Source: a virus | Strand: one strand, 5' to 3' | Length of the DNA stretch: 28,366 bases | Virus record (IMG/VR): IMGVR_UViG_3300037847_006642 | Coordinates: 1-28,366 of that record | Part shown: positions 1,645-20,324 of the stretch, piece by piece | Numbering within the stretch: the first letter of the stretch is position 1 | Layout: each line of letters starts with the position of its first letter | Notes under the pieces: generated by a model | Database searches by the model: none | Told to the model about the DNA's origin: nothing | What the model saw: only the letters and a program-made list of their open reading frames with translations | Made by a program: the position numbers and the translations under genes

Positions 1645-4600
1645 TTAAAAAGGATCAACGTATTTTTGTTTATATTTTTTCTTTTTCTTTTTAACTTTTT
1701 TAGTATCAGGAATATCTAAATTCCACTTACTCCAACCACTAAACATTAAACCTCTTTGTAAAACCGTGTGTTGGTTGTCTAAACTTTCTCTAACGTTTAA
1801 TGTTTTTCTATATAATCTGTTTAATGGAACATTAGTAATACCTTCTACATAAGCGGTATAAGCAGACCATATAGGATTATCAATATCAAAAGTATCTAAT
1901 TCTTCAATAAGTTTTTTATTCCAAACAAGATCTTTTTCAGCCATTACTATTTTTCTAGCTTTAATACCAACTGGTGGTGACACTTGTAAACCTTCAACTA
2001 AAACAGCGTAAGGATCAGGTCTTTGACCTTTTTCTAAATTTTGCTGCTCATACCTTGCTTTAGCCATGTTTTTTAGTGTAGCTACTATTGAGCCATAAAC
2101 TCCAGTTCCTCGTAAAACAGAATCTATAGATCCGTTTATAGCGTACTCTTTCTTTTTAATTAGTTTTTTATCGTCTTCGTCATCGTCAAATATAGCTGCA
2201 AATAAAGCTGTTTGTAAAGTGTAAAATATTAAATTTTGTACTGCAAAGTAATAAGCTATACGAGACATGTTTGAAATATCACTTTGAAACTGTGTTTTAT
2301 TACCAGGTGTTATCCTTCTGTTTTTAAGATCTAAAAATGCTTTTTTACCTATTCTATTAAACTGTGACGTTACGTTTTGAAAAGCTAATATAACTTTACC
2401 AAGAGCAGAAGCCTGTTGTTGAGAAACCATGTCAGGTCTTGCAGACTGCTGTGTGGCTTCAGCTAATATTTGAAAATCAATAAAAGCTTTTTCTTGAGCT
2501 TCTTTTTTACTTAAACCTTCTTTTATATAAGTATTAATTCTATTTCTATAAAACGGAGCTCCACCTGTTGCAATTGCTATATTATCACCTATTTGTGTTG
2601 GTGTAAAACCAAGTTGTAATAATTTTTTAATCAAAGCTTGTACAGGATTTTTAGCGTCTTTTACAGTTGCGGCAAGTTCAGCACCGTTAACATCTATCAT
2701 AATACCACCACGTCTTTGCTTCATAAAGTCAGAGTTAAATAAAAACGACCAATCAGACCAGTATTGTTTTTGATTTGCAAAAGCTTTAGCAGCTCTGTAA
2801 ATGTTATTATCAGCAAAGTTTATAAAATTAACCATAGACATTTGCTGTAAAACCATTGATCTAATGTTAAAGAACATCGTAGCGGCTACAGAGCCGTTAA
2901 GCCAATTCATAAATTGATTAACATGTTTGTTTTGTCCAGAAGGTCTGTTTCTACCAGTTTTAATTCTATAAAGCATATCTTGTATAGCGTTAACCATACC
3001 CTCACCATAAGCAGCTCTTATTTTATTTAAGTTTTTATCAGAAAATATTATATCTGCATTTTCAAAAAACTCTTCAAAAAACTTAGCTCTACCTATTCTA
3101 CCAGTTGCGTCTATTAAATCTGTTCTTATATCACCAGCTTCCCAAGACTCATTAGGTTCAACATAGTTTTCTTGTTTTGATAATACATTTAAACTTTCAG
3201 CATAAGTTCTTAAATCAGGATCTGACATAACTATTTCTACTAATGCGTTTTCATCAGTCTTGCTTAATCCGTTTATTTCATAACCATGTTTGTTCCATAA
3301 GTAAACTCTTATTGCATCTTGATACGTAAAGTCACCATCAGGTGTTTTCTTTAACAATAGCTTTCTTACCTCTGGCATTTGCTTGTTTAAACTAGCATAA
3401 TCGTTTGCAATAGCTTGCTGAGCCATATTTAACTCTCTATAAGCTCTATTAAGTGGCTTTATTAAAACTTTTTCAAAAAAGTCTCTATGTCTATTACCTC
3501 GCTCGCCTTTACCTAAAAAGTTGTATAATAAACCTACAAAATCTTCGTGTGATGGTGGTATAAAAAACCTAAATCTACCTTTCTTAGCGCCTCTTTTTCT
3601 ACTTTTAACAAGTGAAAATATTTTTTCAGCTTCAATACCAGTAACATCTTCTAATATTTGATTAAAATCACCGTCTAAAGTTTCACTAAATTTAACTTTA
3701 GCTTGTTGTACTTTACGTTTAACGTCAAATTGCTCTAATATATTATCTACAGCTTGTACGTTTTGCAATGCGTCATCAGCAAAATAAAAATCATTATAAC
3801 CTTCACCAACTTTATCAGCAACCCACAACGCTTTTGCTTCCGCTGTGCTGTTACCTAGGCCAGTTATGTTTTTTAAAGGTATGTTTAAACCATTAGCTTT
3901 TAAAAAATCAAATATAGCTTGTGCCGCTGCTGGTGGTCTAGCTGTTAAAACAAACATATTTTGCGCTCCAAACTTACGTTGTAACTTTAAAGCTTTTTGA
4001 AATAAAGGTGCTATTTTACCACCTACAACTTTGTTAAATTCAGAAAAATCAAAAGTGTAGCCTTGATCTAATAAATCTTGATATGTAGAAGCATATTGCT
4101 CTGCGTTTAACGTACCAGTTTTACCGTCTTCAGTAGTGTATTTAACTAAAGAATTTGTAGTTGCTAACGTATCATCAAAATCTAATATAGTAATACCTCG
4201 TGAAACTTCAGAATATTTAGACGATCTAGCTTTTTCTGTAGCTTTTTTTAACGGTGCTTTTTGTTTTGCGGTTACAAGATGTTTAGCTTTACCTTTAGCT
4301 GTTACGTTAAAAACTTTATCAAAAGTTTTACCATTAATATGTTGTATACCTTTTGGATCAATACCATTTTCTATAAGAGCTACAGCTTCATCAAAATATC
4401 TATCAAACCAATTATCTATTAAAGTCCAGCCTTCACCCATACTTGTTTGTCTACCAGAACCTTTTAGCTTAACTTTATCATCGTAATTATCTAAAGCTAT
4501 TAGTTTAAAATTATTTTGAACTAAATTAAATGCCGCTTTGAAATTATAATTTTTAAAATTTTTACTTGCTTTTATTCCGCTAAAAGAAGAGTGTAATAAA

Positions 4601-7600
4601 TAATTATAAGCTCTTGAAGCTGGCATCGCGTGCTCCCACTCATATAGCTTACCTTCATATCCTTTAGGATTTTTTGACCAACCTAATAATTCAGCGCCCA
4701 TACGGTGTGGATGTTCTGTATTTTGAGAAACTGTAGAAAACCAATTAGCCCATATTCTAGCAGATTTACCGTTAGTATCTTTTATAGATTTATCAATTTT
4801 TTGCCACATCTGCGTCCACATACTAGCATGCATTTCATTTATTTGTTTAACAGTCATAATAACAGGATTTTTTTCAGTACCAGCAATTTTTTTACCTTTA
4901 CTGTTTGTTTCTGCTATTTCTTTAGGCGTATTGCCAAAATAAGTGCTATATGTTATTCCTTGTCTATACTTAGCTCCTGGTCCAGTAAATTCTTTACCTC
5001 TACCTATTTTATTACCATCGTAAGTAAGCTTGTTAATCTCTTGTTTATAATATTCTTGTAGCTTCATTTTTTTACCATCAGGAGTAGTTACTACATTTTT
5101 TCTAGTAGAACCAAGATGCCTGTTGTTATTTAAAAAAGTATTATAAGTTAACACATTTCCAGGTAAAATAGGTATTATATACTCTTTAATATCTTTAATA
5201 GCATTGTCAATTTCAGTCACAGTTTTATAAGTGTGCATTTTAGTGCCAAAATGATAATTTAAAACAGCATTAGCAATTTTTTGTTCTATTTCAAAGTTAA
5301 GATCAACGTTTCCAAATCCGTCTATATAACCATCTAAAACTTCACTAAAAGCAGTTTTGCTTTGAGCTGTTGTTATATTAGCTATTGTTTGTTTAATTTC
5401 TTGTACTTCTTGTTTAGCTTGCTCTCTAGCTTTTAACTTTTCTTTTGCATCTTTAATTAACTCAGCTTGTTTTTGTCTTTGCTCAGCTTGTTTTTGAAGG
5501 TCTGCTAATTTTCTTTGTGCTGTTGAAAATGCTACTTGTTGCGAAATAACTTTAGCTAAACCTTTAAGAAGCTGACCTATAGATGATCTTTGAGCTCCTG
5601 TAGGTTTTACATTTGTTTCCATTTTAGGAGTTATTCCAAGATCTTTTTTAACTTTCTCAACAGTTTCAAGATCAGGATTAATAAACTCTTCTTTTAAAGA
5701 GGTTACTTTAGTTTGGCTTGATAAACCTTTACTTCTACCACTAGGAGATGTAATTATACCTTCTGGATCAATAAAGTCTTCATAAAAATAATTTTGTGGT
5801 CTTCCTTTTAAACCTATAGCTAAACCTAAAACATCTCTTGAAACAGATATATTTTCACCTATTTTATTTATATCTGCTGTTGGTGCTGTAACGTTTTCTT
5901 TTGGTAATATATTTATAGACTTTTCCATATTATCAGCTACAGCAAAAAAATCTTGAATATTTTTAGCTTCCGAAGGAGATGGTATACCTTTTTTACCTGC
6001 TTTTAATTCTTTGTTACTTATTACATTACCGTTAACATCAACAATATTATCTGATGTTGTTATATTTTCATTACCATCTGTAATTTTTATTGCTGGAACA
6101 TCGAATATAATTTCTCCTACAGGACCAACAAACTTTGATATATCTTTAAAAGTATCACCTACTTTTACATCAACAACTTCTTTTAATTCTTTAATTTTAT
6201 TAGAAACTTTAGCTAAACTTAAAACATCAGTTTTTACTACTTTAGTTTCATCAAAAGATTTTGTTTCTACATCTTGAGTGTCTGCTATTTGTCTAGCGCT
6301 TTCAGTGTCTAGGCTTTCAGTGTCTAGCTGCTCTTTTACTTTAGCAGCTTCAAATATAACAGCTTGCTTTCTATTAAAGTTACCATACACATGCGTAGAA
6401 AAAGCGCCTTTAGTTTTATCAAAGTTATTTACAACGCTTACAAAGTATTTTCCTATTTCACCTACAACATTTTCTCTTGGTATACTTCCTTTTTCTTCTG
6501 TGTAACCTAAAGCATCTATAGCTAACGCTACAAAATCTCCATATAAAACTGATGCTATAGCATTTTTTTGCTCTGGAAGAGTTGAAGGGCTTTGATACAT
6601 AATAGCTAAATCTTCGTTACTATAGTTCTCTTCTTTTAAAAACTTTACTAGCTCATCGTTAACAACTTCAGACGCTTTAGCCTCAGCTTCTGTTTGCTCT
6701 TCTAAATCAACTTGTTTGGCTCTTATTGATATTGGAGGTAAACTTAAACTAGCTCTTTGACCGTAAAAATTAGTATATTCTTTTAAATGTTCAAAAGCAT
6801 TTTCAGGACCAAAGTTACTCCAATTAGTACCAACTTTTGTTTTTGTTTGAAATAAATCGCTAAAATAATTAGCTATGTTATTTAAAGTCTGACCGCTATT
6901 TTCTGTCAATTGAGTTAAGCTATACTCTTTCATAGCATCAGAAACACTTGCAAAAAGCTCAAGATAATAATTTTTAGTACCTTTTCTAATTTTACCGTAT
7001 CTTTGTTCAAACTTAGCTATTGCATCTGTGTATACAAGAGCAAATGTAGGGTCTCCAGTTCCTAACATTTGAGTTTCAAGCATTGACCAAGCTTCTTTAA
7101 GTTCTTTTCTTGATAATTTTTCTTGTATAACATGAAGTATATCATGATGGAAAGCGTTAGAAGTACCATAACCTTTTCCTTCTCTAATAAGCTCATGTCT
7201 TAATTGTTGTACACTAAAAACACCTACACCAGGTATTTCAACAGCGTTAACTTCTTTATTTAATAATCTTTGTATGGGCTTGTAATATTTATTTTTAGGA
7301 CTTAAAAAGCCTAGCTCTTTAAAATATTCTGTAGCCCTATCTTTTGTTATTAAATCTATTGGCTTAGCGTTATTGTAAAGCTCAGGGTTTTCTATTACGT
7401 GTTGAACAAAGTTTTTTCTACTTTTAACATCGTTAACAATTCTTAATTCTTCAAAGTTTTTATTTAATAAATTTCTTTGTTTTTCTTTAAGATTTTTTAT
7501 TTTTTCATTATTTCTTATCTGATTAGTATTTACACCTCCAAGTATCTCAGCGTCCATACCTTGTTTAAGCTCTTTGTTTTCAGCTTCTAACCTTGCTATT

Positions 7601-9963
7601 TCTTTTCTATTATTTGTAAGTTCGATATTATTATTGATAACAACTTGTTTTTGATCAATATCCATATCGCTATACTCTTTATAATTATTGATAACAGCTT
7701 CTTCAGATTCAAGTTCGTCAAAACGTTTGTTTCTTTCTTCTACAGTTATATCACCATCTTCATACTGCCCTTGAGTTTCTCTTTTTAATTTATTAATAGC
7801 GTTTCTAACGTAGTTAGGATCTTTTGAAGCTCTATAATTAGCTTTAACATCACTATAAGTTGATTTTATAGTAGCTCCACCGCCAACTAAAGGTATAGTA
7901 GATAACAAAGCTTGTGTTCCTGCTTCAAAATATCTTTTTAAATTTTTTTGTCTATTGCCATAGTAACCAGTTGCAATACCAACACCTGTAACGCTACTAC
8001 CTTCTTGAAAAATTTCTGTACCTGTTTCAACAATACCAGCAGCACCTAAAGGAGCTCCAGAGGCTATAGTACCTTTTACATTTCCAGAGGTTAAGTTTCT
8101 CCAAAAAGATTTAGGAATAAAAACTTTTGCTCCAGTTTTACCTACTAAACCTAAAGTACCACCGGTAAAAATTGTACTACCTAAATCAGCACCTGCGTTT
8201 ACAAGACCAACGACTATAGCTGGAGTTAAGTTTACTTCACCAGAGTTTAAAACCTCTAACATTAAATCTTTTCTTTCTTTTTCTGGTAATTTTCTAAACT
8301 GTTCTAAAGCATTTTCAAAATCAACATCTTTTGGTTTTATTATACCGTTTCGCCAGTCTTCTTTTTCTTTATCAGACATGTTTTTCCACTCTTCATCAGA
8401 CGGTGGTGCTGGCATTGGCCCTAAGCTTAAACCTTTACCTTCAATATCTTGATCAGTTGGTTTTTTATATTGACCAAAAGCTGGAAAACGTTTCATTGCG
8501 GCTTCAATTTCAATAATCTCTATAGCAGCTCCACCCGCTTCTTGTATATAAGTAGAACCACCACCTGTAACTACAGCTGAAAACATTTGAACAATTTGAT
8601 CACCTAACATACCTTGCCACTCATCAATAGTTAAATCAGGATCACTTATTGTTTTTCCAAAAGCCGTAGGTACTCTAGCATCTTTTAATCTTTTTTGATA
8701 GTCTTGAGTTTCCATAATATCCTCTGCTATTTTAACGTTTAAACCGTATATTTGCGTGTTTAAACTTTTTATAGCGTCAGCGTTTGTTTTAAAGCCAGTA
8801 GGCTCACCAAAAGGAGAGACAAATGGAGCGTTAGGGTCTAGTTTTTCTAATTCTTTTTTATTATTTTGTAGGTTAGCTAATTTTTTACCTCTATGTAATA
8901 TTTGTGCTTCGTTAAATGCTTTTGGAAACTTTATCATTGTAGTGATATAGCCTTGTCTAATCATATCTGAATCTAATCCAAAAAAATTATCACCAGTAAC
9001 CCAAGCCGGTAATGTAGCGTTTTCAGCTTCTTTTCTTTGTTTATCATTTATAGATATGCCATATCTACTTTCTAAAGCTGCTACTATAGAGTTTCCAACG
9101 TTTTGTAATTCATCTGACTCTTTAAACAACCTATCATGCTCTTTTGTTACTAAGTCTTGATATTCTTCATTAGCTTTTTTATAGCCCTCTTCTGTATTTA
9201 GATCATATTTTTTTCTTAATTCAACAATAGCTTTTGCAGAGTATTGTTCTAAATTATAATTTATATTTCTAAAAATTCTATCAGAGCCAGGTATTTTTTT
9301 ATCACCAAACATTAACTTGTTAAATGTCTCGTCAACATGAGTTTTAAGCTCTTCACTTGACATTGCCTCTAATTCTTCTTGTGATAAAAGTTTGTTAGCG
9401 TAATTCCATGTTTGAGCATAAGCTCTTTCATCAAAGTTTGTTAAGTTAGTGTTTTCTCTTATAAACTTGTTCATGTCGTTAGCAACACCTTCAGCACCTA
9501 TGTTTATACTAAGAGCGCTTGAAGACTCCCAAAAATCACCAGCTATATTATCGTCACCTTCAGAGTTTTTTGACTTGCCAATAGCAGGTAATCCAAGATC
9601 TAAATCAAATTCAAAAGTTTGTTCTTTACGCTCACCATTTTCATCTGGTGGTGCTATAGCTATAACTCTATCAAAACCAAGACCAGTTCCACCGCCAAAT
9701 CTACCAAAATAACCTAAAAAACTATCATCTTCTTTAAAATCCCAACCTAAACCACCAAACATCTTTTTTAAACGTTGAACACCTTGTTTTTCACCAAGAG
9801 CAGTTATTTCAGACGTAACAGTAGGTAAAGTATCGTCAAAGCTATCGTCTTGATACATGTCTATTTTGTAAGCTTTAGGATATTGCAACCTAAAATCGTC
9901 TAGTTGAGAAGGGTGAATCTCAAACTGCTTTCCAGAATCAGTATCAAAATAATATTCGTACAT
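1645..9963 (-). CDS. Giant polyvalent internal virion/ejection-type protein (2772 aa)
   Basis: This protein sits in the position of T7 gp16, after two internal-protein-like genes, and likely enters the host with the DNA. Visible parts in order: a soluble N-terminus; a Gly/Ala-rich hydrophobic stretch, about 580-700; coiled coil, about 765-845; a zincin-like site HHDILH at 939-944 with ELFASVSDA from E1002; a segment like sigma-70 region 2, about 1105-1210; a Lys/Gln/Glu coiled coil, about 1478-1525; an HNH-like site (EWEH at 1775-1778, Asn1818, Asn1826/Lys1830); a HAD phosphatase with DFDDT at 1928-1932, T2007 and DD at 2063-2064; a conserved-looking helical C-terminal third starting near FIPPSHEDF (about 2130), with a hydrophobic helix near 2565-2590; and a Lys-rich tail. 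Large multi-domain polyvalent proteins of phages are an established class, but the assignment of each domain here is my reading. Gaps to neighbours are 5 bases on each side. No frameshift was seen. Confidence 0.85.
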   Translation of the reverse strand: MYEYYFDTDSGKQFEIHPSQLDDFRLQYPKAYKIDMYQDDSFDDTLPTVTSEITALGEKQGVQRLKKMFGGLGWDFKEDDSFLGYFGRFGGGTGLGFDRVIAIAPPDENGERKEQTFEFDLDLGLPAIGKSKNSEGDDNIAGDFWESSSALSINIGAEGVANDMNKFIRENTNLTNFDERAYAQTWNYANKLLSQEELEAMSSEELKTHVDETFNKLMFGDKKIPGSDRIFRNINYNLEQYSAKAIVELRKKYDLNTEEGYKKANEEYQDLVTKEHDRLFKESDELQNVGNSIVAALESRYGISINDKQRKEAENATLPAWVTGDNFFGLDSDMIRQGYITTMIKFPKAFNEAQILHRGKKLANLQNNKKELEKLDPNAPFVSPFGEPTGFKTNADAIKSLNTQIYGLNVKIAEDIMETQDYQKRLKDARVPTAFGKTISDPDLTIDEWQGMLGDQIVQMFSAVVTGGGSTYIQEAGGAAIEIIEIEAAMKRFPAFGQYKKPTDQDIEGKGLSLGPMPAPPSDEEWKNMSDKEKEDWRNGIIKPKDVDFENALEQFRKLPEKERKDLMLEVLNSGEVNLTPAIVVGLVNAGADLGSTIFTGGTLGLVGKTGAKVFIPKSFWRNLTSGNVKGTIASGAPLGAAGIVETGTEIFQEGSSVTGVGIATGYYGNRQKNLKRYFEAGTQALLSTIPLVGGGATIKSTYSDVKANYRASKDPNYVRNAINKLKRETQGQYEDGDITVEERNKRFDELESEEAVINNYKEYSDMDIDQKQVVINNNIELTNNRKEIARLEAENKELKQGMDAEILGGVNTNQIRNNEKIKNLKEKQRNLLNKNFEELRIVNDVKSRKNFVQHVIENPELYNNAKPIDLITKDRATEYFKELGFLSPKNKYYKPIQRLLNKEVNAVEIPGVGVFSVQQLRHELIREGKGYGTSNAFHHDILHVIQEKLSRKELKEAWSMLETQMLGTGDPTFALVYTDAIAKFEQRYGKIRKGTKNYYLELFASVSDAMKEYSLTQLTENSGQTLNNIANYFSDLFQTKTKVGTNWSNFGPENAFEHLKEYTNFYGQRASLSLPPISIRAKQVDLEEQTEAEAKASEVVNDELVKFLKEENYSNEDLAIMYQSPSTLPEQKNAIASVLYGDFVALAIDALGYTEEKGSIPRENVVGEIGKYFVSVVNNFDKTKGAFSTHVYGNFNRKQAVIFEAAKVKEQLDTESLDTESARQIADTQDVETKSFDETKVVKTDVLSLAKVSNKIKELKEVVDVKVGDTFKDISKFVGPVGEIIFDVPAIKITDGNENITTSDNIVDVNGNVISNKELKAGKKGIPSPSEAKNIQDFFAVADNMEKSINILPKENVTAPTADINKIGENISVSRDVLGLAIGLKGRPQNYFYEDFIDPEGIITSPSGRSKGLSSQTKVTSLKEEFINPDLETVEKVKKDLGITPKMETNVKPTGAQRSSIGQLLKGLAKVISQQVAFSTAQRKLADLQKQAEQRQKQAELIKDAKEKLKAREQAKQEVQEIKQTIANITTAQSKTAFSEVLDGYIDGFGNVDLNFEIEQKIANAVLNYHFGTKMHTYKTVTEIDNAIKDIKEYIIPILPGNVLTYNTFLNNNRHLGSTRKNVVTTPDGKKMKLQEYYKQEINKLTYDGNKIGRGKEFTGPGAKYRQGITYSTYFGNTPKEIAETNSKGKKIAGTEKNPVIMTVKQINEMHASMWTQMWQKIDKSIKDTNGKSARIWANWFSTVSQNTEHPHRMGAELLGWSKNPKGYEGKLYEWEHAMPASRAYNYLLHSSFSGIKASKNFKNYNFKAAFNLVQNNFKLIALDNYDDKVKLKGSGRQTSMGEGWTLIDNWFDRYFDEAVALIENGIDPKGIQHINGKTFDKVFNVTAKGKAKHLVTAKQKAPLKKATEKARSSKYSEVSRGITILDFDDTLATTNSLVKYTTEDGKTGTLNAEQYASTYQDLLDQGYTFDFSEFNKVVGGKIAPLFQKALKLQRKFGAQNMFVLTARPPAAAQAIFDFLKANGLNIPLKNITGLGNSTAEAKALWVADKVGEGYNDFYFADDALQNVQAVDNILEQFDVKRKVQQAKVKFSETLDGDFNQILEDVTGIEAEKIFSLVKSRKRGAKKGRFRFFIPPSHEDFVGLLYNFLGKGERGNRHRDFFEKVLIKPLNRAYRELNMAQQAIANDYASLNKQMPEVRKLLLKKTPDGDFTYQDAIRVYLWNKHGYEINGLSKTDENALVEIVMSDPDLRTYAESLNVLSKQENYVEPNESWEAGDIRTDLIDATGRIGRAKFFEEFFENADIIFSDKNLNKIRAAYGEGMVNAIQDMLYRIKTGRNRPSGQNKHVNQFMNWLNGSVAATMFFNIRSMVLQQMSMVNFINFADNNIYRAAKAFANQKQYWSDWSFLFNSDFMKQRRGGIMIDVNGAELAATVKDAKNPVQALIKKLLQLGFTPTQIGDNIAIATGGAPFYRNRINTYIKEGLSKKEAQEKAFIDFQILAEATQQSARPDMVSQQQASALGKVILAFQNVTSQFNRIGKKAFLDLKNRRITPGNKTQFQSDISNMSRIAYYFAVQNLIFYTLQTALFAAIFDDDEDDKKLIKKKEYAINGSIDSVLRGTGVYGSIVATLKNMAKARYEQQNLEKGQRPDPYAVLVEGLQVSPPVGIKARKIVMAEKDLVWNKKLIEELDTFDIDNPIWSAYTAYVEGITNVPLNRLYRKTLNVRESLDNQHTVLQRGLMFSGWSKWNLDIPDTKKVKKKKKKYKQKYVDPF
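6298..6327 (-). repeat. Perfect 15-bp tandem duplication inside the giant ejection gene
   Basis: The + strand unit GCTTTCAGTGTCTAG occurs twice back to back (6298-6312 and 6313-6327). It is in frame and duplicates the residues LDTES in the giant protein, in a linker just after the sigma-like segment. The perfect identity points to a recent slippage or duplication event. Confidence 0.95.
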
Positions 9964-9968
9964 GAATT

Positions 9969-11459
9969 TTATTGATTTTTATTTTTATTAAAACTAAAGT
10001 CTATTACTGGGTTACTAAACAAAAAGTTTTGATTTTCAGGTTTACTTAAAAACCTCATGTAAGTATTAAAATCTTTTCTTGAAAAACCATAACCTTGCGC
10101 CTCTGCAACTAATATTTGAAAGTTCTTTAAAAGAGCTTCTTGATCATTAAGTGTAAACTTCTTAGATATAGCTTCACCGGCTTTAGGTTTACGCAAGTCT
10201 GGGTTTTGTATTTTACCACCTTCACCATCATCTATTTCCTCTCTCATATCTACCTTTCTTTTAAATATTTGATATGTTGGCGCTCCACCTCTTAATTTAT
10301 CATCTATTGTTCCATCATTTCCAACTCCTCTTATTACATAACCTAATAGTCTAGCGTATCTACTCGCTTCAGCCAAGTCACCTTTGGATAAGTTTTGCGT
10401 TAATTTAGTTATATCACCTAAAGTACCTGCGGTTGTTGTTGTATTGTTAAAAAAGTTTTCTATACTAAAACCTTCATCACTAACTTCTAATTCTTCTTTA
10501 TTATCTAAATAAGTTATGTTAACTTGATTTTCTAAAAGATTTTTTACAAATGAGTTGGTAGTAGCTTCGTCATAATTATCATTGCCTGGAGTAGTTAATA
10601 TTTTTATAAACTCCATAGCGTTTTCTTGCGTTACTTGCTCACCGTCTGGAGTGCCATCATTATTTAAATCAGTACCACTACTATTTAAAAGATCTGTAAA
10701 TGACTCAATATTTTCTACAAGTTGATCTTGTATGGTTCCACGTCCACCGATTGATAAATTAGAAACCATAAGTTTAGCACCCATATCATCTCTATTATCC
10801 ATAATAACACTCATGTCTTGGTTAAAAGCTATACTATTAAACTGAGCGTTTTTAGGGTCAACGTATCTATTAATTACTATTTGAGTATTTCTTACGCCTA
10901 TTGCGTCTCTTGCAACGTATTGTTTGTTTAAATCATTAAGATTAATTTCAGAACCACCTATTACTATATTTCTTTCTCTTACGTTACCAATTTCAAACTT
11001 ATTATCTAAAAGTAATTCTAAATTTGCAATAGCTTCTTCGCTCATGTTTTCGTATGAAGCTGTTTTTTTAAAATCTACTAGCTTTGTTTTTAAACGAATT
11101 ATATTATCTTTCATTACGTCTAAATTATCTAATCTTTCTACAGTGCTATTTACCTGACTTTGTTTTACAAAAGCAGCTTTTTGTATTGGCTCGTTTATAA
11201 ATTGAGCTTTATCAGCAATAATTAAATCAAGTTCAACATCGTCAGTAGAAGCCATTACTTGATTAGCTTTTGACTCAACTATACCCGCTCGTTTTTTTGA
11301 TCTAGCTTTTATTTCTCCAAATGCTCGTAATAAATTGTTTGTAGACTGTTGTCTTTGGCTACTTATATTTTGAAAACCAGTAACCATCCTACCAAATACA
11401 CCGCTTAAGTCAGGCACTACACCAGCTTCAGCTATTCCTATGTTTTTAAATTTACTCAT
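9969..11459 (-). CDS. Helical internal virion protein, gp15-like by position
   Basis: The 496-aa product has no signal peptide or clear membrane segment. It reads as mainly alpha-helical and polar, with Gln/Asn-rich and charged stretches. The N-terminus (GIAEAGVVPDLSGVFGRM, then an SSQRQQSTNNLLRAF-type helix) looks like a structural internal protein. It lies between a gp14-like gene and the giant gp16-position gene, with gaps of 12 and 5 bases. In T7-type phages three consecutive genes encode the internal core that is ejected with DNA, and this gene fits the middle slot. I see no catalytic motif. The EF-hand-like string DLNNDGTPDGEQ near the middle could bind Ca2+ but also occurs by chance in acidic loops. 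Assignment rests on context more than on sequence. Confidence 0.6.
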   Translation of the reverse strand: MSKFKNIGIAEAGVVPDLSGVFGRMVTGFQNISSQRQQSTNNLLRAFGEIKARSKKRAGIVESKANQVMASTDDVELDLIIADKAQFINEPIQKAAFVKQSQVNSTVERLDNLDVMKDNIIRLKTKLVDFKKTASYENMSEEAIANLELLLDNKFEIGNVRERNIVIGGSEINLNDLNKQYVARDAIGVRNTQIVINRYVDPKNAQFNSIAFNQDMSVIMDNRDDMGAKLMVSNLSIGGRGTIQDQLVENIESFTDLLNSSGTDLNNDGTPDGEQVTQENAMEFIKILTTPGNDNYDEATTNSFVKNLLENQVNITYLDNKEELEVSDEGFSIENFFNNTTTTAGTLGDITKLTQNLSKGDLAEASRYARLLGYVIRGVGNDGTIDDKLRGGAPTYQIFKRKVDMREEIDDGEGGKIQNPDLRKPKAGEAISKKFTLNDQEALLKNFQILVAEAQGYGFSRKDFNTYMRFLSKPENQNFLFSNPVIDFSFNKNKNQ

Positions 11460-11471
11460 GTTATTTTAATT

Positions 11472-12179
11472 TTATGAATCTAGTGTCATTATGTATGCTT
11501 GTCCTAATTGATTTAAAGCATTCATTTGATTTGCTGCCATCTGAGCTTGTAACTGATTACCGGCAACTAAAGAAGACATTTGATTAGCTTGTGCTTGACC
11601 TAAGTTAGAAGCAGCAGAAGCAGATACAGCAGCTTGCATGCTTAATAAATTAGCTTGTCTCTGACTTTCTAGTGTTTGAACATTAGCCTCACCTTTTCTT
11701 TCTGCCATGTCAGCTGTTAAAGCTCCTTTAGCAGCAGCTCTTTGGTTTATAGCTTCTTGTTTACCAATATTAGCAGCAATTTTTTGATTTTGTAACATAC
11801 CTTGATTAGCTAGTGTTTGTGCTAAAGCTGCAATACCACTAGATCCAGCCGCAGAACGAAGAGAAGATAATATGTTAGCTCTAGTTTGCTCACCTCTTCT
11901 AGACATAAACTCTGCTTCTAAAGTGTTTACTGTTAAGTCTTCAAAAGGATTTTCCATATTTTCAAAAGGATTAACAAAAACCATTTCTCTATACTTTTCT
12001 TTTTCAACAGCTAAAAGCTTCATTTGTTCATCTCTAAAAGCTCTCGCTTCTTCTAATTGTTGTTGAGTTAAAGCATCCATTCGCCTTTGGTTTGCTCTCA
12101 TTTTAGCAGCTTGTGATCTTTGACTTAAAAAATTAAGACCACCTATAATTAACATAGCTTGAGGGGTTGTAATAGGCAT
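11472..12179 (-). CDS. Small internal virion protein, T7 gp14-like
   Basis: The 235-aa product begins with a short hydrophobic segment (PQAMLIIGGLNFLSQRSQA). A charged helix rich in Arg/Gln/Glu follows, then a conserved-looking FENMENPFEDLTV segment, then a long Ala/Gln/Asn-rich helical region to the C-terminus (QAQANQMSS, AQMAANQMNALNQ). This composition and length match T7 gp14-type internal proteins, which leave the virion first and are thought to help form the channel in the outer membrane. It is the first of three ejection-type genes in transcription order. The 62-base gap upstream of it is the longest one left of the 22,844-22,869 terminator, so a separate promoter or processing site is possible. 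There is no enzymatic motif. Confidence 0.65.
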   Translation of the reverse strand: MPITTPQAMLIIGGLNFLSQRSQAAKMRANQRRMDALTQQQLEEARAFRDEQMKLLAVEKEKYREMVFVNPFENMENPFEDLTVNTLEAEFMSRRGEQTRANILSSLRSAAGSSGIAALAQTLANQGMLQNQKIAANIGKQEAINQRAAAKGALTADMAERKGEANVQTLESQRQANLLSMQAAVSASAASNLGQAQANQMSSLVAGNQLQAQMAANQMNALNQLGQAYIMTLDS

Positions 12180-14261: not shown

Positions 14262-17200
14262 TTATGATGATGTGTTACTAGATATTATACTAAGACCCTG
14301 TACATTAAAATCACTAGTGTCTATATTACTAGCTGTAACATCGTCTCCTTTTATATAATTATACCACTTATTACCTTTTTCTAAAAACTCATTAACACTA
14401 CCTGTTTGAGGTATGTCTGTTTCTAAACCGTCTACATACCAACCTGGCTTTCCTTCAATATTGTAAAAATCTGCATCTGAGCCGTTTGTTGTTACATCTA
14501 ACCTATCAACTTTAGCTTGAGTACCTTCGTATGTTATAGTTTTAAATCTTTTGTTTTTATAAGGATCAGCATTTAAAACTAGTGTTAACTCAGGATAATA
14601 TTGAGAACCATAGAAATTAGCTCTTGTATTATTAGAGTGATGTTTCCAAAGCTCAGCGTCTTTAAAAGTATAGTATTCATTGTTTAAACTTATACCTGCC
14701 TGCATGCTAGTAAAAGATTTAAAACTTGAAAAACCTTTTATGTTTTCATTAAAACTAACAACATGATCCGTTCCCGTAGTGTCTAATTTAAGATTATATT
14801 CGTTTTTTCTAGCATCATAACTACCTATTAAAGTTGTTGATATTGGTAAGTTATCTCTAAAAAAGTCTGCCATACCGTATTGTGATATTGCTGTTAAACC
14901 GTCCATTGATAATCTAAGAACAACTCCACGTTGTTTATCTGTAAAATAAGATCTATGTGATTGTGAGGCAAAAGATCTTGGATCTTTTGATATACCAAAC
15001 TCACCAGCGTAAGGTATAGTTTGTCCTAAAACGTTTGTGTTAGCGGTTAGCTGTGGGTTTCCGTCAGCGTTAAAAACAGCATCTTTATTTGCTAATATTT
15101 TTAAAACTTTATCTTCACACAAAACTAAAAGATTAGAGTCTTTTGTATGTAGTTTTTGTATAGTACCGTATGTTGGATTAATATCTTTAGTTATTGTTTC
15201 AGCTGTTAAAAATTGATTTAAATCGTTTACGTTACTTGTAGAGTTATATATACCAGAAAATATTAAACCACTACCTCTTGTATCTTCTTTATAAACTTCA
15301 TCTAAAGTTGTTGAAGCCACTATACCTTTACCTAAACTTGCTTTGTTAAAAACATCTTTTATTCTATCAGACTCAACACCGTTGTTAAAAGAATAACAGT
15401 TATAATAAGATAAATCTTGAGTATTACCGTGATCTTTTATATCATAAAAATCACTAGCTTCATAATAAATATCTAAACCTTCTGTTTCTTTTGGCTCTGT
15501 CTCAAATATAGCTGGTTTAGTTGTAGTTAATTGAGTTTCTTCATTAGTTACAGATCCTATAAATTGTAAAATTCTACTTGTGTTACCATCCATTTTACCA
15601 GCAACAGTACCACCGGCATCATTTGTAGGTATAAAAGTAGTAGTATCAGGAAGTCTATCTAGTTTAATTATATATGTTAGTCTTCTGTTACTACCTCTAC
15701 AAAATCTTTTTTCTTCATCTTTTATTGAATCTTGTATTATAGGAACAGTACTACCTGAACCATCACCTATTGTATGTAGCTCAAAATTATTAGTGGTATT
15801 ATGAGTACTTCTAGCTCTAAATCTTTTGTATGTTCCTGTTGACGAGTCTCTTAAATCTGAAAAAGTTATATTTTGAATACCAGCAGTGTTGTGATAGTAT
15901 TGATAATACGTATAAGAATTACCAGGAAAAGGTGTGTGGTTGTATCTTTTTACAATTTTAAAATCTTTTATTTCAAACTGATTACCGGCAGGATCATCTT
16001 CAAACTTAAATTTTTTACCTACAGCTATACTATTAACTACGTCTAAAAAACTGTTAGAAGTACTAGTCCAACCACTTGAAGCTAAAGCTGTTTCTAAAGC
16101 GCTTAAGTCATTAGGATCAAATAAATTATGAGGTATATCTGAAGGCATACCGCCAAAAGAAATTTGTATATAATGTTCACCTACTTCGTGAAAAGCAGTG
16201 CCATATAGTTCTATATCTGCATCTACATCTTCTTGTATTGCAGTATAAATACCTCTAGCAGTTCTTATGTAATCGTTTTTACCTTGAGTTAAATTATTAC
16301 CAAAAGCAAAACCATCATTTGCCGCCATTTCTAACTTATTACTATTGTTTACAGCATAGTGAACAGCTCTATGAAAATGATAATATTTTCCATGTGTCTC
16401 TGGATTATAACTAGTATCTTGTTGTATACCTATATAAGACATGTTATCTATAAACCAGTTGCTTCCATATTCGCCCTGCTCTCCTAAATCATTACCTGTA
16501 GTAGCAACTCCAAATTTAAATATTCTTAAAAACTTCATATAAGAACCAATAGAACCGTACATACTATAACCATTGGTACCATTTTTTCTTTGAAATAAAC
16601 CATAGCTATATGAAAAAGCAGCGTGCCTTAAAGTTCCAGCTTTTGTAGCATCTGTCATTACTGAAGACTGATCAACCCCAACAATATTATCTTGAATACC
16701 ACTATTACCTACTGTACTAACATTTAAAGGTGAAATTGGATTGTCTATATGAGACATCATAAAAGCTAAGTTATGAGGTATTGCTTTATATATGTTTTTA
16801 CCATTACCAGCTTGCTGAGTACCACCACCAGCATTGTCACCACTATCAAACCAAGATCTAGCTTCAAAATATAAAGTATCATTATGATTTAAATTAGCTG
16901 CAAAAGGATGTCCACTACTAGAGTCGTAAGTACGAAAACTATCAGATGTTAAGTCACTCCACTGAGCACTCACAGTACTAATATTATGTATAGATATAGC
17001 GTTTGTTTTATTACGAGAATTGTTGTAGTTGTTAAAATTTACAAGGTTATTTAACGCACCACCTGCTCCAACATTAAAAGATGAATAATTTGAATCAAGG
17101 TTTAAGCTTGCAGGATCGCTTTTGTAAAATAAAGAATTATTTGACAATACTTGAGCTAACACACTATTTGTAGAGTTACTGTAAACATTATCAGTAATAA

Positions 17201-20200
17201 ACGCATCTGCGTTAACTTTTGCAAAAAATCTACCGTCAAACTCTGGTTTATTTTCTATTTTAACAGTTAAAACTTCTATTACAACACCAGAGCTTAGATT
17301 AGAACTAGTCATTATCCAAGATATATCTGACGCTTCAAATTTATTTTCAAAAGTAATTTTATAATGCTCGTTACCGCTAGGCGCTGTAACTACTTGTATT
17401 GAATCAATATTAAAAATGTCTGAAACACGGTTGTTGTTGTCTTTAAATTTAACAACTATATCTTTTGTACTAATAATTTCTGTAAGATCAGGATTACCTT
17501 CTGTTCCTATCCAATTGTTTTTATCAAATGAAATAATTCTGTCTCCAGTTATAGGCCTTGTGCTAACATCGTCAAATAAACCTGTATTTATATTAGCGTT
17601 AATACCTCCAAGTCCTATGCTATTAAAGTTTTGTTTTATAAAATCAGGAGCATTAGCTGATATATCTAAAACTTTATATATTGCGTTTTCATCTGTAACC
17701 GCCACACCGTTATCACCATGACCTTTTTTTAATATTAAAAAAGTTTCTTCATCTAATTTATTTCTCTCTGTAGAAGGAAAAGAAAGCCAGTAACTATCAC
17801 CTTTTGAGTCTGCTTTGTATATTCTATCTAAAGCGATATTATAGTATTCACTACTAGTTTCTTTTACAAAATATTTAAAGTGAGTTGCCCAGTTAGGAGC
17901 AAAACTTGTTATCTTAGCTTTTATACAGTTGTTATCTACTGAGTTTAACTTTGGAACAGATACGCTAGCTGTTTTTCCTGTTAATACAGGTGTTTCTCTA
18001 CCATATTCATCAGCATAAACAACACCAAGCTTGTAGTTTCTTTGAGATTTAACAGATTTTTTAGTATTAGTAATTACTTCTTTTAATGAAAAATTACTTA
18101 TATGACAAGTAAACACACTAGTAGTTGGATCAGAGCCAACTTGAAACATAAATTGTCTTACAAGATTATTGTTCCAAGGAGCTCCAGCAGCTGAGTTTCT
18201 TACACTTGATAAAGTTGCTTGACCGCTATAATAACCATTACCTGTTATTGATTTTTGAAAATTAGCAAACCTACCAGTACCATCGGTACCGCTAGTACCA
18301 GACATTAAAGCAGGACCTTGTAATTCTCCAGTACCAGTCCAATTAGTAACTAAAAAACTATAGTAATATGTTTTATCATTTTCAAGAATATTAACACTAG
18401 CATCAGTATTAAATTTAGCAAATTGATTATCAGAAACACATTTAACAGCACCTGCTTTTCTGTTATTATCAGAAAAAAGTCTTACGTGAGTATAGTTATT
18501 ATTATTATCTTGAGTGTAATTGTCAAAATTTTCTGACATAAATCTATTTGGTAAAAGCTCTGGACCAGTAAAAACTCTGTTATCTATATAAGCGTCAATT
18601 TTTATATTTTCATCTGGGGTATTATAGTTTTGAGTATAATTACCGTAAACTATTCTATTACCAACAACCTCTTGAGCTAAAGCTTTTTTAGGAACATTAT
18701 CCCATTGCCTTAGCAATTGTTTTTCTTCTAATAAAGAGTATATATTTTCTTTTGTAATTATATACTTATTATCAGTCCAATAAGTGTCATTGTTACTATC
18801 TTTTCTAATACTATCAACTTTATATATTTCTGGGCTATTAGACTCTGTATATAAAATATCTACTTGAACAACATCTTCTGGTATGTCTGGGGTTATAATG
18901 TTTGTTATTTCTATTTCTTTTAATTTGTTTTGCATACCAATATTAAAAGCTTCTTTAGAGTCATATAAAAAATTACCTGGTAAAAAAGCTGCTTCAGAAA
19001 AAGGTGAGAAAGTAGAATACTCACCGTCTGTATATTTATATCTTGTAGCAAAAAAAGAAAATTTATCTTTAAATAAATCACTTTCTTCTTCAAATAAAAA
19101 TATATTAAAAGCACTAGTACTACTAAGACCGCCGCCACTTAATATTTTAGCTTTAAACTTATTAGTACCTACTAAAGATTGAACCTTTAATCTTACATCA
19201 AAAACATCTTTTGTTGGTGTTGTTGGTGGAACGCTTAAATGTAAAATATCATTTGGCAAAAAAGGATTTAACCCACTAGAAGACATTTCTATCTCTACAG
19301 TATCATTATTGTTGATAATAGACATATCAATAGGTTCTGTAGATCTATCAAAAACGTTAGATCTATTTTGTTTTATGTTTATGTCTGGAGAGTTTACTGG
19401 AGATTTACGTATTACAGTAGTGTGAGTTTCATCTGCTTTTTTATCTGTAGTCAAAGGATAATGAGCAGTATTAATAGTTCCATCAGCATTTAAAACAACA
19501 CTTAGTTTAGTTGTAGTGTTAGCGTTTGTAGTACCAGCTATTGATCTTGGTATAGATATTTTTTTAGGTTCTGAATTATTATCTGTCCATATTAAAAAGT
19601 CTTCAACTATATTTATTCCAGTTATGTAATAATTTTTATTAAAGTTTAAAGCTCTTTTTTTATTTTTGTGTGTTATATGTAAAACTAAATGTTGAAAGTT
19701 TGCGGTAGCTAAAGAACTTATTTCGTTTTCAAGAGTTAATATATTTGTAGATATACTTATTATTCTATTATTCCAAACATGATTTACACCACTATTTTTA
19801 TCGTAAACATTAACGTACATGTTTGTAGATAAATTATCTTTATATGCACTTGTGTTTGGTACAGTTATAGTTTTATTAGCTACGTTAAAGTTTATATCAG
19901 TATTAACGTCCATTACATCATCGTCGTCTACATCAAAAACTGCTAAGTAGCTATAAACATCTGTAAATACGTTAGTCATAGTATTTGTACTACTATCGTA
20001 CTTTAATATTAAATCTTTACTAACACTTGGCTGATCATTATCACCAGCAAAACCATCTGTTGTTATTTCTGGTCCAGAAACAAAGTAATATATGCAGTTA
20101 TTTTTTTCGTCTGTAATTTCACCTACTATTGAACTTCCAGTAGGCGCAGAGTCTCCAGAAACTAAAGTATTACCTTTTACAGCTTGAACAGTACCAACAT

Positions 20201-20324
20201 CATTATCGTCAGATGTTGACACTTCAATATTTAGTGCATCTCTGTATTGTCCATTAGGTATTAATCTTTCATCAAGGTCTTTATTCATTTTACCTTGAAA
20301 AAAGCTATTGTTAATTTCTGCCAT
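14262..20324 (-). CDS. Very large tail protein (stabilization/nozzle-type), with inserted carbohydrate-binding-like domain
   Basis: The 2020-aa product opens with a motif I recognise from large tail 'stabilization' proteins of crAss-like and uncultured marine phages (GKMNKDLDERLIPNGQYRDA). Propeller-like repeats follow (TGINIVEDFLIWTDNNSEPK). The C-terminal third carries another conserved-looking block (NCYSFNNGVESDRI, LIFSGIYNSTSNVNDLNQF, VLKILANKDAVFNADGNP, YFTDKQRGVVLRLSMDGL), also propeller-like. Between them, about residues 590-748, lies a jelly-roll-like segment that ends ISNFSLKEV, as carbohydrate-binding modules in phage tail proteins often do. It is far larger than T7 gp12 (about 800 aa), which occupies the comparable place. 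It follows two connector/tubular-like genes with gaps of 3-4 bases. The likely role is the tail tube or nozzle, perhaps contacting surface glycans. Confidence 0.8.
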   Translation of the reverse strand: MAEINNSFFQGKMNKDLDERLIPNGQYRDALNIEVSTSDDNDVGTVQAVKGNTLVSGDSAPTGSSIVGEITDEKNNCIYYFVSGPEITTDGFAGDNDQPSVSKDLILKYDSSTNTMTNVFTDVYSYLAVFDVDDDDVMDVNTDINFNVANKTITVPNTSAYKDNLSTNMYVNVYDKNSGVNHVWNNRIISISTNILTLENEISSLATANFQHLVLHITHKNKKRALNFNKNYYITGINIVEDFLIWTDNNSEPKKISIPRSIAGTTNANTTTKLSVVLNADGTINTAHYPLTTDKKADETHTTVIRKSPVNSPDINIKQNRSNVFDRSTEPIDMSIINNNDTVEIEMSSSGLNPFLPNDILHLSVPPTTPTKDVFDVRLKVQSLVGTNKFKAKILSGGGLSSTSAFNIFLFEEESDLFKDKFSFFATRYKYTDGEYSTFSPFSEAAFLPGNFLYDSKEAFNIGMQNKLKEIEITNIITPDIPEDVVQVDILYTESNSPEIYKVDSIRKDSNNDTYWTDNKYIITKENIYSLLEEKQLLRQWDNVPKKALAQEVVGNRIVYGNYTQNYNTPDENIKIDAYIDNRVFTGPELLPNRFMSENFDNYTQDNNNNYTHVRLFSDNNRKAGAVKCVSDNQFAKFNTDASVNILENDKTYYYSFLVTNWTGTGELQGPALMSGTSGTDGTGRFANFQKSITGNGYYSGQATLSSVRNSAAGAPWNNNLVRQFMFQVGSDPTTSVFTCHISNFSLKEVITNTKKSVKSQRNYKLGVVYADEYGRETPVLTGKTASVSVPKLNSVDNNCIKAKITSFAPNWATHFKYFVKETSSEYYNIALDRIYKADSKGDSYWLSFPSTERNKLDEETFLILKKGHGDNGVAVTDENAIYKVLDISANAPDFIKQNFNSIGLGGINANINTGLFDDVSTRPITGDRIISFDKNNWIGTEGNPDLTEIISTKDIVVKFKDNNNRVSDIFNIDSIQVVTAPSGNEHYKITFENKFEASDISWIMTSSNLSSGVVIEVLTVKIENKPEFDGRFFAKVNADAFITDNVYSNSTNSVLAQVLSNNSLFYKSDPASLNLDSNYSSFNVGAGGALNNLVNFNNYNNSRNKTNAISIHNISTVSAQWSDLTSDSFRTYDSSSGHPFAANLNHNDTLYFEARSWFDSGDNAGGGTQQAGNGKNIYKAIPHNLAFMMSHIDNPISPLNVSTVGNSGIQDNIVGVDQSSVMTDATKAGTLRHAAFSYSYGLFQRKNGTNGYSMYGSIGSYMKFLRIFKFGVATTGNDLGEQGEYGSNWFIDNMSYIGIQQDTSYNPETHGKYYHFHRAVHYAVNNSNKLEMAANDGFAFGNNLTQGKNDYIRTARGIYTAIQEDVDADIELYGTAFHEVGEHYIQISFGGMPSDIPHNLFDPNDLSALETALASSGWTSTSNSFLDVVNSIAVGKKFKFEDDPAGNQFEIKDFKIVKRYNHTPFPGNSYTYYQYYHNTAGIQNITFSDLRDSSTGTYKRFRARSTHNTTNNFELHTIGDGSGSTVPIIQDSIKDEEKRFCRGSNRRLTYIIKLDRLPDTTTFIPTNDAGGTVAGKMDGNTSRILQFIGSVTNEETQLTTTKPAIFETEPKETEGLDIYYEASDFYDIKDHGNTQDLSYYNCYSFNNGVESDRIKDVFNKASLGKGIVASTTLDEVYKEDTRGSGLIFSGIYNSTSNVNDLNQFLTAETITKDINPTYGTIQKLHTKDSNLLVLCEDKVLKILANKDAVFNADGNPQLTANTNVLGQTIPYAGEFGISKDPRSFASQSHRSYFTDKQRGVVLRLSMDGLTAISQYGMADFFRDNLPISTTLIGSYDARKNEYNLKLDTTGTDHVVSFNENIKGFSSFKSFTSMQAGISLNNEYYTFKDAELWKHHSNNTRANFYGSQYYPELTLVLNADPYKNKRFKTITYEGTQAKVDRLDVTTNGSDADFYNIEGKPGWYVDGLETDIPQTGSVNEFLEKGNKWYNYIKGDDVTASNIDTSDFNVQGLSIISSNTSS

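Follow-up and report, generated by a model that had tools for sequence, protein, structure and literature searches.

A giant cysteine-free protein at the ejection slot of a marine Bacteroidota podovirus as a candidate polyvalent cargo protein

Phage polyvalent proteins were named in 2017 by Iyer et al., who described zincins as hub domains of the class and proposed roles in processing and in early conflict (PMC5512222). Two of the precedents differ in their handling, since DdrB of phage P1 is processed before packaging, with its zincin domain as the proposed agent, while the N4 virion RNA polymerase, another protein with a zincin-like domain, enters the particle without processing (PMC5512222). 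N4-type virion RNA polymerases are giant and Cys-free, and the absence of cysteine has been proposed to help their entry. In crAss001, the muzzle is followed by packaged cargo proteins whose proposed ejection is partly unfolded. In T7, the last and largest protein of the ejection slot is gp16.

We analyzed a stretch of 28,366 nucleotides (the window) from a marine podovirus of Bacteroidota, which covers the greater part of IMG/VR record IMGVR_UViG_3300037847_006642 (30.4 kb). The window encodes a giant protein of 2772 aa without cysteine at the ejection slot (1645..9963; this and all features below lie on the minus strand). Like T7 gp16, the giant is the last and largest protein at its slot, but it is about twice as long and has other modules, and no SLT/transglycosylase was found in it, as the first-pass annotation had already remarked. 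It shares with the packaged crAss001 proteins gp45-gp50 the position after the muzzle gene and the pattern of a giant with two smaller companions; the crAss001 giants are RNA polymerase-associated, whereas the window giant lacks their DxDxD motif. The N4 virion RNA polymerase is similarly giant and Cys-free and contains a HExxH domain as well as a large helical portion, but no T7-like RNA polymerase module was found in the window giant by Pfam, PHROGs, NCBIfam and PDB searches. With the polyvalent proteins, the giant has in common its very large size, unrelated domains, a recurrent zincin, a gene among virion genes and predicted injection (PMC5512222), as well as a predicted core fold common to proteins annotated as large polyvalent. 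It differs from them in having no LPD or MPTase-PolyVal sequence match and in carrying a HDxxH variant of the zinc motif.

The single polypeptide combines several unrelated domains (HAD and zincin-like supported, sigma-like tentative), and its gene lies among virion structural genes. LPDs, common in the class without being required, gave no sequence match. HAD and sigma-like domains are unmentioned in the founding description, and HNH appears there only in another system (PMC5512222). The giant is very probably of the known polyvalent kind, with a module combination absent from that description. The earlier proposal of a protein with several effectors held for the ejection slot and the multi-domain effector character, but the concept has been known since 2017 (PMC5512222), and host takeover is inferred.

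Gene neighbourhood and cysteine content

The frame of the giant runs from ATG to stop with zero internal stops, and comparable intact giants of 2118-3620 aa (median 2752) were present in 80 relatives, indicating that the frame, described at first pass as unbroken over 8.3 kb, is not a chance ORF. Searches with the whole protein against Pfam, PHROGs, NCBIfam, PDB and a phage collection were uninformative. On the minus strand, the gene order starts with the portal, a 400-aa protein, a capsid-type protein, a 275-aa protein and two ring-position proteins, and continues with a 2020-aa muzzle-type protein, proteins of 547, 122, 235 and 496 aa, the giant, and proteins of 190 and 356 aa; in this podovirus of Bacteroidota, the giant is the last protein of the head/tail module. 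In PHROGs, the portal was phrog_6547 (E 6e-149) and the capsid-type protein phrog_13704 (E 1e-99), and the nearest portal and capsid were those of Manatee Spring podovirus MW202828, Maribacter phage Panino, Flavobacterium elemo phages and the Cellulophaga phages phi38:1 and phi18:3. The muzzle-type tail protein (14262..20324) matched Pfam crAss_MUZ_C with an E of 1e-6, above its cut-off. The 235-aa protein (11472..12179) is a candidate first ejection/cargo protein by its position and zero Cys, and is kept beside the giant in relatives; the 496-aa protein (9969..11459), which is also Cys-free and adjoins the giant, is a candidate second one. Downstream of the giant, after the 190-aa gene, the 356-aa protein (3-1070) has a signal-peptide-like start and a FSTFYAAVNGG motif and is possibly secreted or in the outer membrane. 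Its counterpart lies directly downstream of the giant in L016, L017 and L018.

Giants also close the structural block in the cultured relatives, namely in Manatee (3859 aa), Panino (1829 aa), elemoA (gp90, 3694 aa), phi38:1 (gp101, 1691 aa) and phi18:3 (gp123, 1935 aa), and they too are nearly Cys-free. Gp123 of phi18:3 is annotated as structural 'based on experimental MS/MS proteomics analysis', elemoA gp90 is annotated as 'structural protein' and phi38:1 gp101 is structural by similarity. These three resemble the window giant in slot, giant size, freedom from Cys and annotation as virion proteins, but they show little sequence similarity to it and are without its helical C-terminal core (C-core), which was not found in the giants of the cultured relatives. 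The cultured giants are tied to the 2772-aa giant mainly through their slot, their low Cys content and one short module of weak statistics. Since the giant follows a muzzle and small Cys-free proteins and giants occupy the same slot in relatives, its earlier assignment to the DNA-ejection position is supported. By analogy with the same-slot proteins, of which phi18:3 gp123 is MS/MS-annotated, a virion location of the window giant is likewise supported. A literature search on elemo-phage virion proteomics and on sigma domains in polyvalent proteins gave no direct match.

The bodies of the 80 giants contained 15 Cys in ~219,000 aa, and a further 93 Cys sat in short C-terminal tails of ~20 members. 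ORFs just upstream of the giants had 1.4 Cys per 1000 residues and those downstream had 27, the downstream value including Cys-rich proteins and possibly spurious ORFs. The depletion fits ejection but does not prove it. In ~20 relatives, one or two CCCH mini-fingers (C-x9-11-C-x10-C-[YF]-x-H) ended exactly at the C terminus of the giant (L022, L032, L047, L069, L074, L080, L082-L087, L091, L092, L094, L096, L098, L099 and L101), and these tails held nearly all the Cys of the clade giants. They may serve as a tag for packaging, retention or DNA binding.

Relatives of the giant and exchange of modules

Because a single-sequence scan of viral contigs with the giant returned zero relatives, we reached them via the 235-aa neighbour and then by alignment of the C-core. 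This alignment, covering the last 880 residues (HAD and helical core), matched at least 493 IMG/VR stretches of an uncultured clade; 80 of them were kept, and the 80 fetched giants were all >2000 aa. It also had four matches in MAG contigs, three of them from Bacteroidota. When the C-core, the HNH-like piece and the zincin and sigma piece were compared with named phages by tblastn, we obtained one weak C-core match and nothing else. HAD and C-core were found in 88-90 of ~90 sequences, while the E-H (HNH-like) module occurred in ~32, the Gly/Ala-rich module in ~28-31, the window-type zincin in five and the sigma-like domain in nine, later ~14 distinct sequences. Since the former are near-universal and the latter patchy, the C-terminal part is the chassis and the remainder is exchanged.

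The Gly/Ala-rich hydrophobic module (aa 565-726; 7786..8271) is a probable membrane-contact or ejection part. It matched elemoA gp90 with an E of 2e-6 and phi18:3 and Panino more weakly, these E-values being those of a small database. The coiled coils and hydrophobic stretches that had been reported between the segments were recovered, with hydrophobic stretches near aa 582-600 and 2574-2592 and a coiled-coil-like linker at aa 1455-1545 (5329..5601), which was recognized from its sequence and had only a weak spectrin-type match. A conserved domain after the sigma-like domain (aa 1239-1447; 5623..6249) matched strongly in the relatives that carry the sigma-like domain and in a few more.

Insertions were also noted among the relatives. 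A 445-aa domain lies between HAD and the helical core in L053:10421-11755 and L064:10616-11950, the two copies being 70% identical mutually, and pieces related to it are found at other places in the L051, L041, L055 and L017 giants. At L018:3178-13282, the giant is split between frames of 1566 and 1708 aa, and since there are unknown residues in the upstream one, an assembly fault is possible.

Some relatives carried recognisable enzymes. The L076 giant has a GH108 muramidase domain at its N-terminus, which by analogy would possibly do the cell-wall job of the T7 gp16 transglycosylase. Zeta-toxin/AAA_33 kinases were present in giants of relatives, and in L030, L033, L040, L053 and L059 a P-loop kinase of the zeta/polynucleotide-kinase type was nested within HAD just after motif I. 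This fusion recalls polynucleotide kinase-phosphatase, with a weak TIGR04075 match and with phrog_505 in two members. The nesting of the kinase within HAD makes nucleic-acid or nucleotide ends a plausible target of the HAD domain.

Domains of the giant

The HAD-type phosphatase domain (aa 1921-2090; 3694..4203) was well supported by sequence motifs and by its modelled fold, in line with the first-pass annotation. Motifs I to IV were all present (D1928xD1930xT, T2007AR, K2044 and D2063D2064), and the catalytic residues were kept in 74-83 of 83 sequences. At relaxed E, Pfam DUF2608 matched 30 of 31 members and HAD 14 of 31. The top Foldseek matches by probability were HAD phosphatases (0.99, 0.97 and 0.87); for this long query, their E-values were weak. 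A HAD-only sequence profile retrieved no HAD entry from PDB, so that the assignment rests on motifs, Pfam and fold. The adjoining helical C-terminal core (aa 2095-2767; 1663..3681), present in 89-90 of ~90 sequences, is predicted to share its fold with phage large polyvalent proteins. Its model had 60 viral model matches below E 0.001, including proteins annotated large polyvalent, ART-PolyVal, MuF C-terminal and one UDP-N-acetylglucosamine kinase, with moderate TM scores outside the clade of ~0.3-0.4 on the full query. No convincing match was found by fold search of the core against PDB, and no LPD Pfam family was detected by sequence in 31 C-core members or in the whole giant.

The zincin-like domain (aa 894-1071; 6751..7284) aligned on the HELLH...EEIFTAFSDAI of relatives, in which HELLH is followed by the EEIFTAFSDAI helix; the window giant has HDILH (aa 940-944; 7132..7146) and then LELFASVSDAM. 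HExxH was present in 77 of the 80 giants (exactly one in 76, two in one) and the remaining three had HDxxH, while only 51 of 4000 shuffled sequences contained at least one HExxH. In the window, Asp replaces the catalytic Glu; the same HDxxH occurs in L020, L045 and L077, and the close homologue L033 carries HEAFH. H940, H944, E1002 and D1009 were invariant in a nine-row alignment, E1002 being the third-ligand Glu on the downstream helix. The zincin profile compared with MPTase-PolyVal (PF18818) by hhalign at 17% (controls at most 2.4%), but hmmscan gave no match of the segment to that family, and the fold search with the zincin and sigma model had no significant match. The alignments support a relationship to zincins, the change at the catalytic base being conservative yet unusual. 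The earlier zincin-like reading thus stood on homology, on HExxH in the relatives and on the retained E1002, but not on a HExxH in the window copy itself. Because of the change, activity of this copy cannot be assumed, and the substitution probably lowers or alters it.

For the sigma region-2-like domain (tentative; aa 1140-1227; 6283..6546), the sole PDB match of a nine-sequence profile was the sigma factor 8x6g_H (E 2.3e-4), aligned up to the FST motif, and a sigma factor match recurred with a wider alignment. Against 16 Bacteroidota sigma region-2 sequences, hhalign gave 42-54%, compared with <1% for other segments of the giant used as controls, and with the A3 alignment the two were in register over the FSTxV motif. 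Profile-profile comparison with only four RpoD-type sequences gave no match, Pfam Sigma70_r2 (PF04542) did not match the segment, and about one third of the 50 fold matches listed for the zincin and sigma model were sigma factors, none significant. Taking the profile evidence with the Pfam and fold results, we lean slightly towards a true relative of sigma region 2, and the earlier sigma-like label was retained in part. The HNH-like label fared less well. The E-H module (aa 1708-1887; 4303..4842) has E1777-H1778 invariant in 18 sequences, and in a model of 1131 residues (mean pLDDT 79.9) the pair is predicted at a strand end, followed by helices, a NFKLIAL strand and a helix (beta..beta-alpha arrangement). 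This topology is compatible with HNH, but library, fold and profile tests gave no match to HNH families and GmrSD_C scored no better than controls in profile comparison; an HNH identity is not established.

Proposed mechanism and alternatives

We consider it very probable, from slot, composition and domain content, that the window giant is an ejected virion cargo protein of the polyvalent class with a proposed delivery part and payload. The giant would be synthesized late and placed inside the head close to the portal, and it would leave through the tail, unfolded at least in part, alongside the two small Cys-free proteins. Delivery, with membrane contact, packaging and refolding, would fall to the Gly/Ala-rich module (aa 565-726) and the helical core (2095-2767). 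The zincin-like domain would separate the payload from the delivery module, a position expected for a protease that processes the protein or acts on the host. The sigma-like, E-H and HAD modules would be the payload, acting in the cytoplasm in the first minutes and most likely engaging host RNA polymerase and dephosphorylating a nucleotide or nucleic-acid end.

The presence of one zincin between modules in almost every relative also suits a polyprotein that is cut before packaging, so that only part is ejected and the zincin-like part is left behind or in the cell. P1 DdrB would be the precedent for such cutting, but N4 vRNAP is its counterexample (PMC5512222), and the window copy has HDxxH and no known cleavage site, so we regard this course as unlikely. 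That only HAD and the helical core are kept in nearly all members, and that the window zincin has HDxxH, might instead indicate a mainly structural ejectosome protein, in which the hydrophobic module and helical core build a channel for the DNA, as T7 gp16 does, and the enzyme-like modules are carried along in degenerate form. Some ejectosomes need no transglycosylase, so its absence here accords with such a role. The catalytic residues of HAD, HExxH in the great majority of giants and the swapping of modules for recognisable enzymes, e.g. GH108 and kinases, speak against degeneracy, and we find a purely structural role quite improbable. A divergent relative of the crAss and N4 virion RNA polymerases is scarcely credible and was rejected, since the slot of the crAss001 RNA polymerase-associated giants, the crAss-type muzzle and a giant, Cys-free, zincin-bearing make-up like that of N4 vRNAP are outweighed by the absence of the DxDxD catalytic motif (only two matches, both in acidic runs), by the lack of any polymerase match in Pfam, PHROGs, NCBIfam and PDB, and by an upstream part that, unlike an essential polymerase, is not conserved in the clade.

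Within the ejected polyvalent cargo reading, we also advance, as a distinctly unlikely but specific proposal, that the injected sigma region-2-like domain engages host RNA polymerase before phage genes are read and that the neighbouring HDxxH zincin-like domain may release it. If true, early transcription would have a third route in an injected sigma-like domain, besides the N4 and crAss polymerases. Little is known about early delivery, in the first minutes, by marine Bacteroidota phages. The chassis of this clade, consisting of a helical core, near-total Cys loss and one zincin-like domain, takes many payloads, so that these can be treated as an inventory of functions in early takeover and counter-defence.
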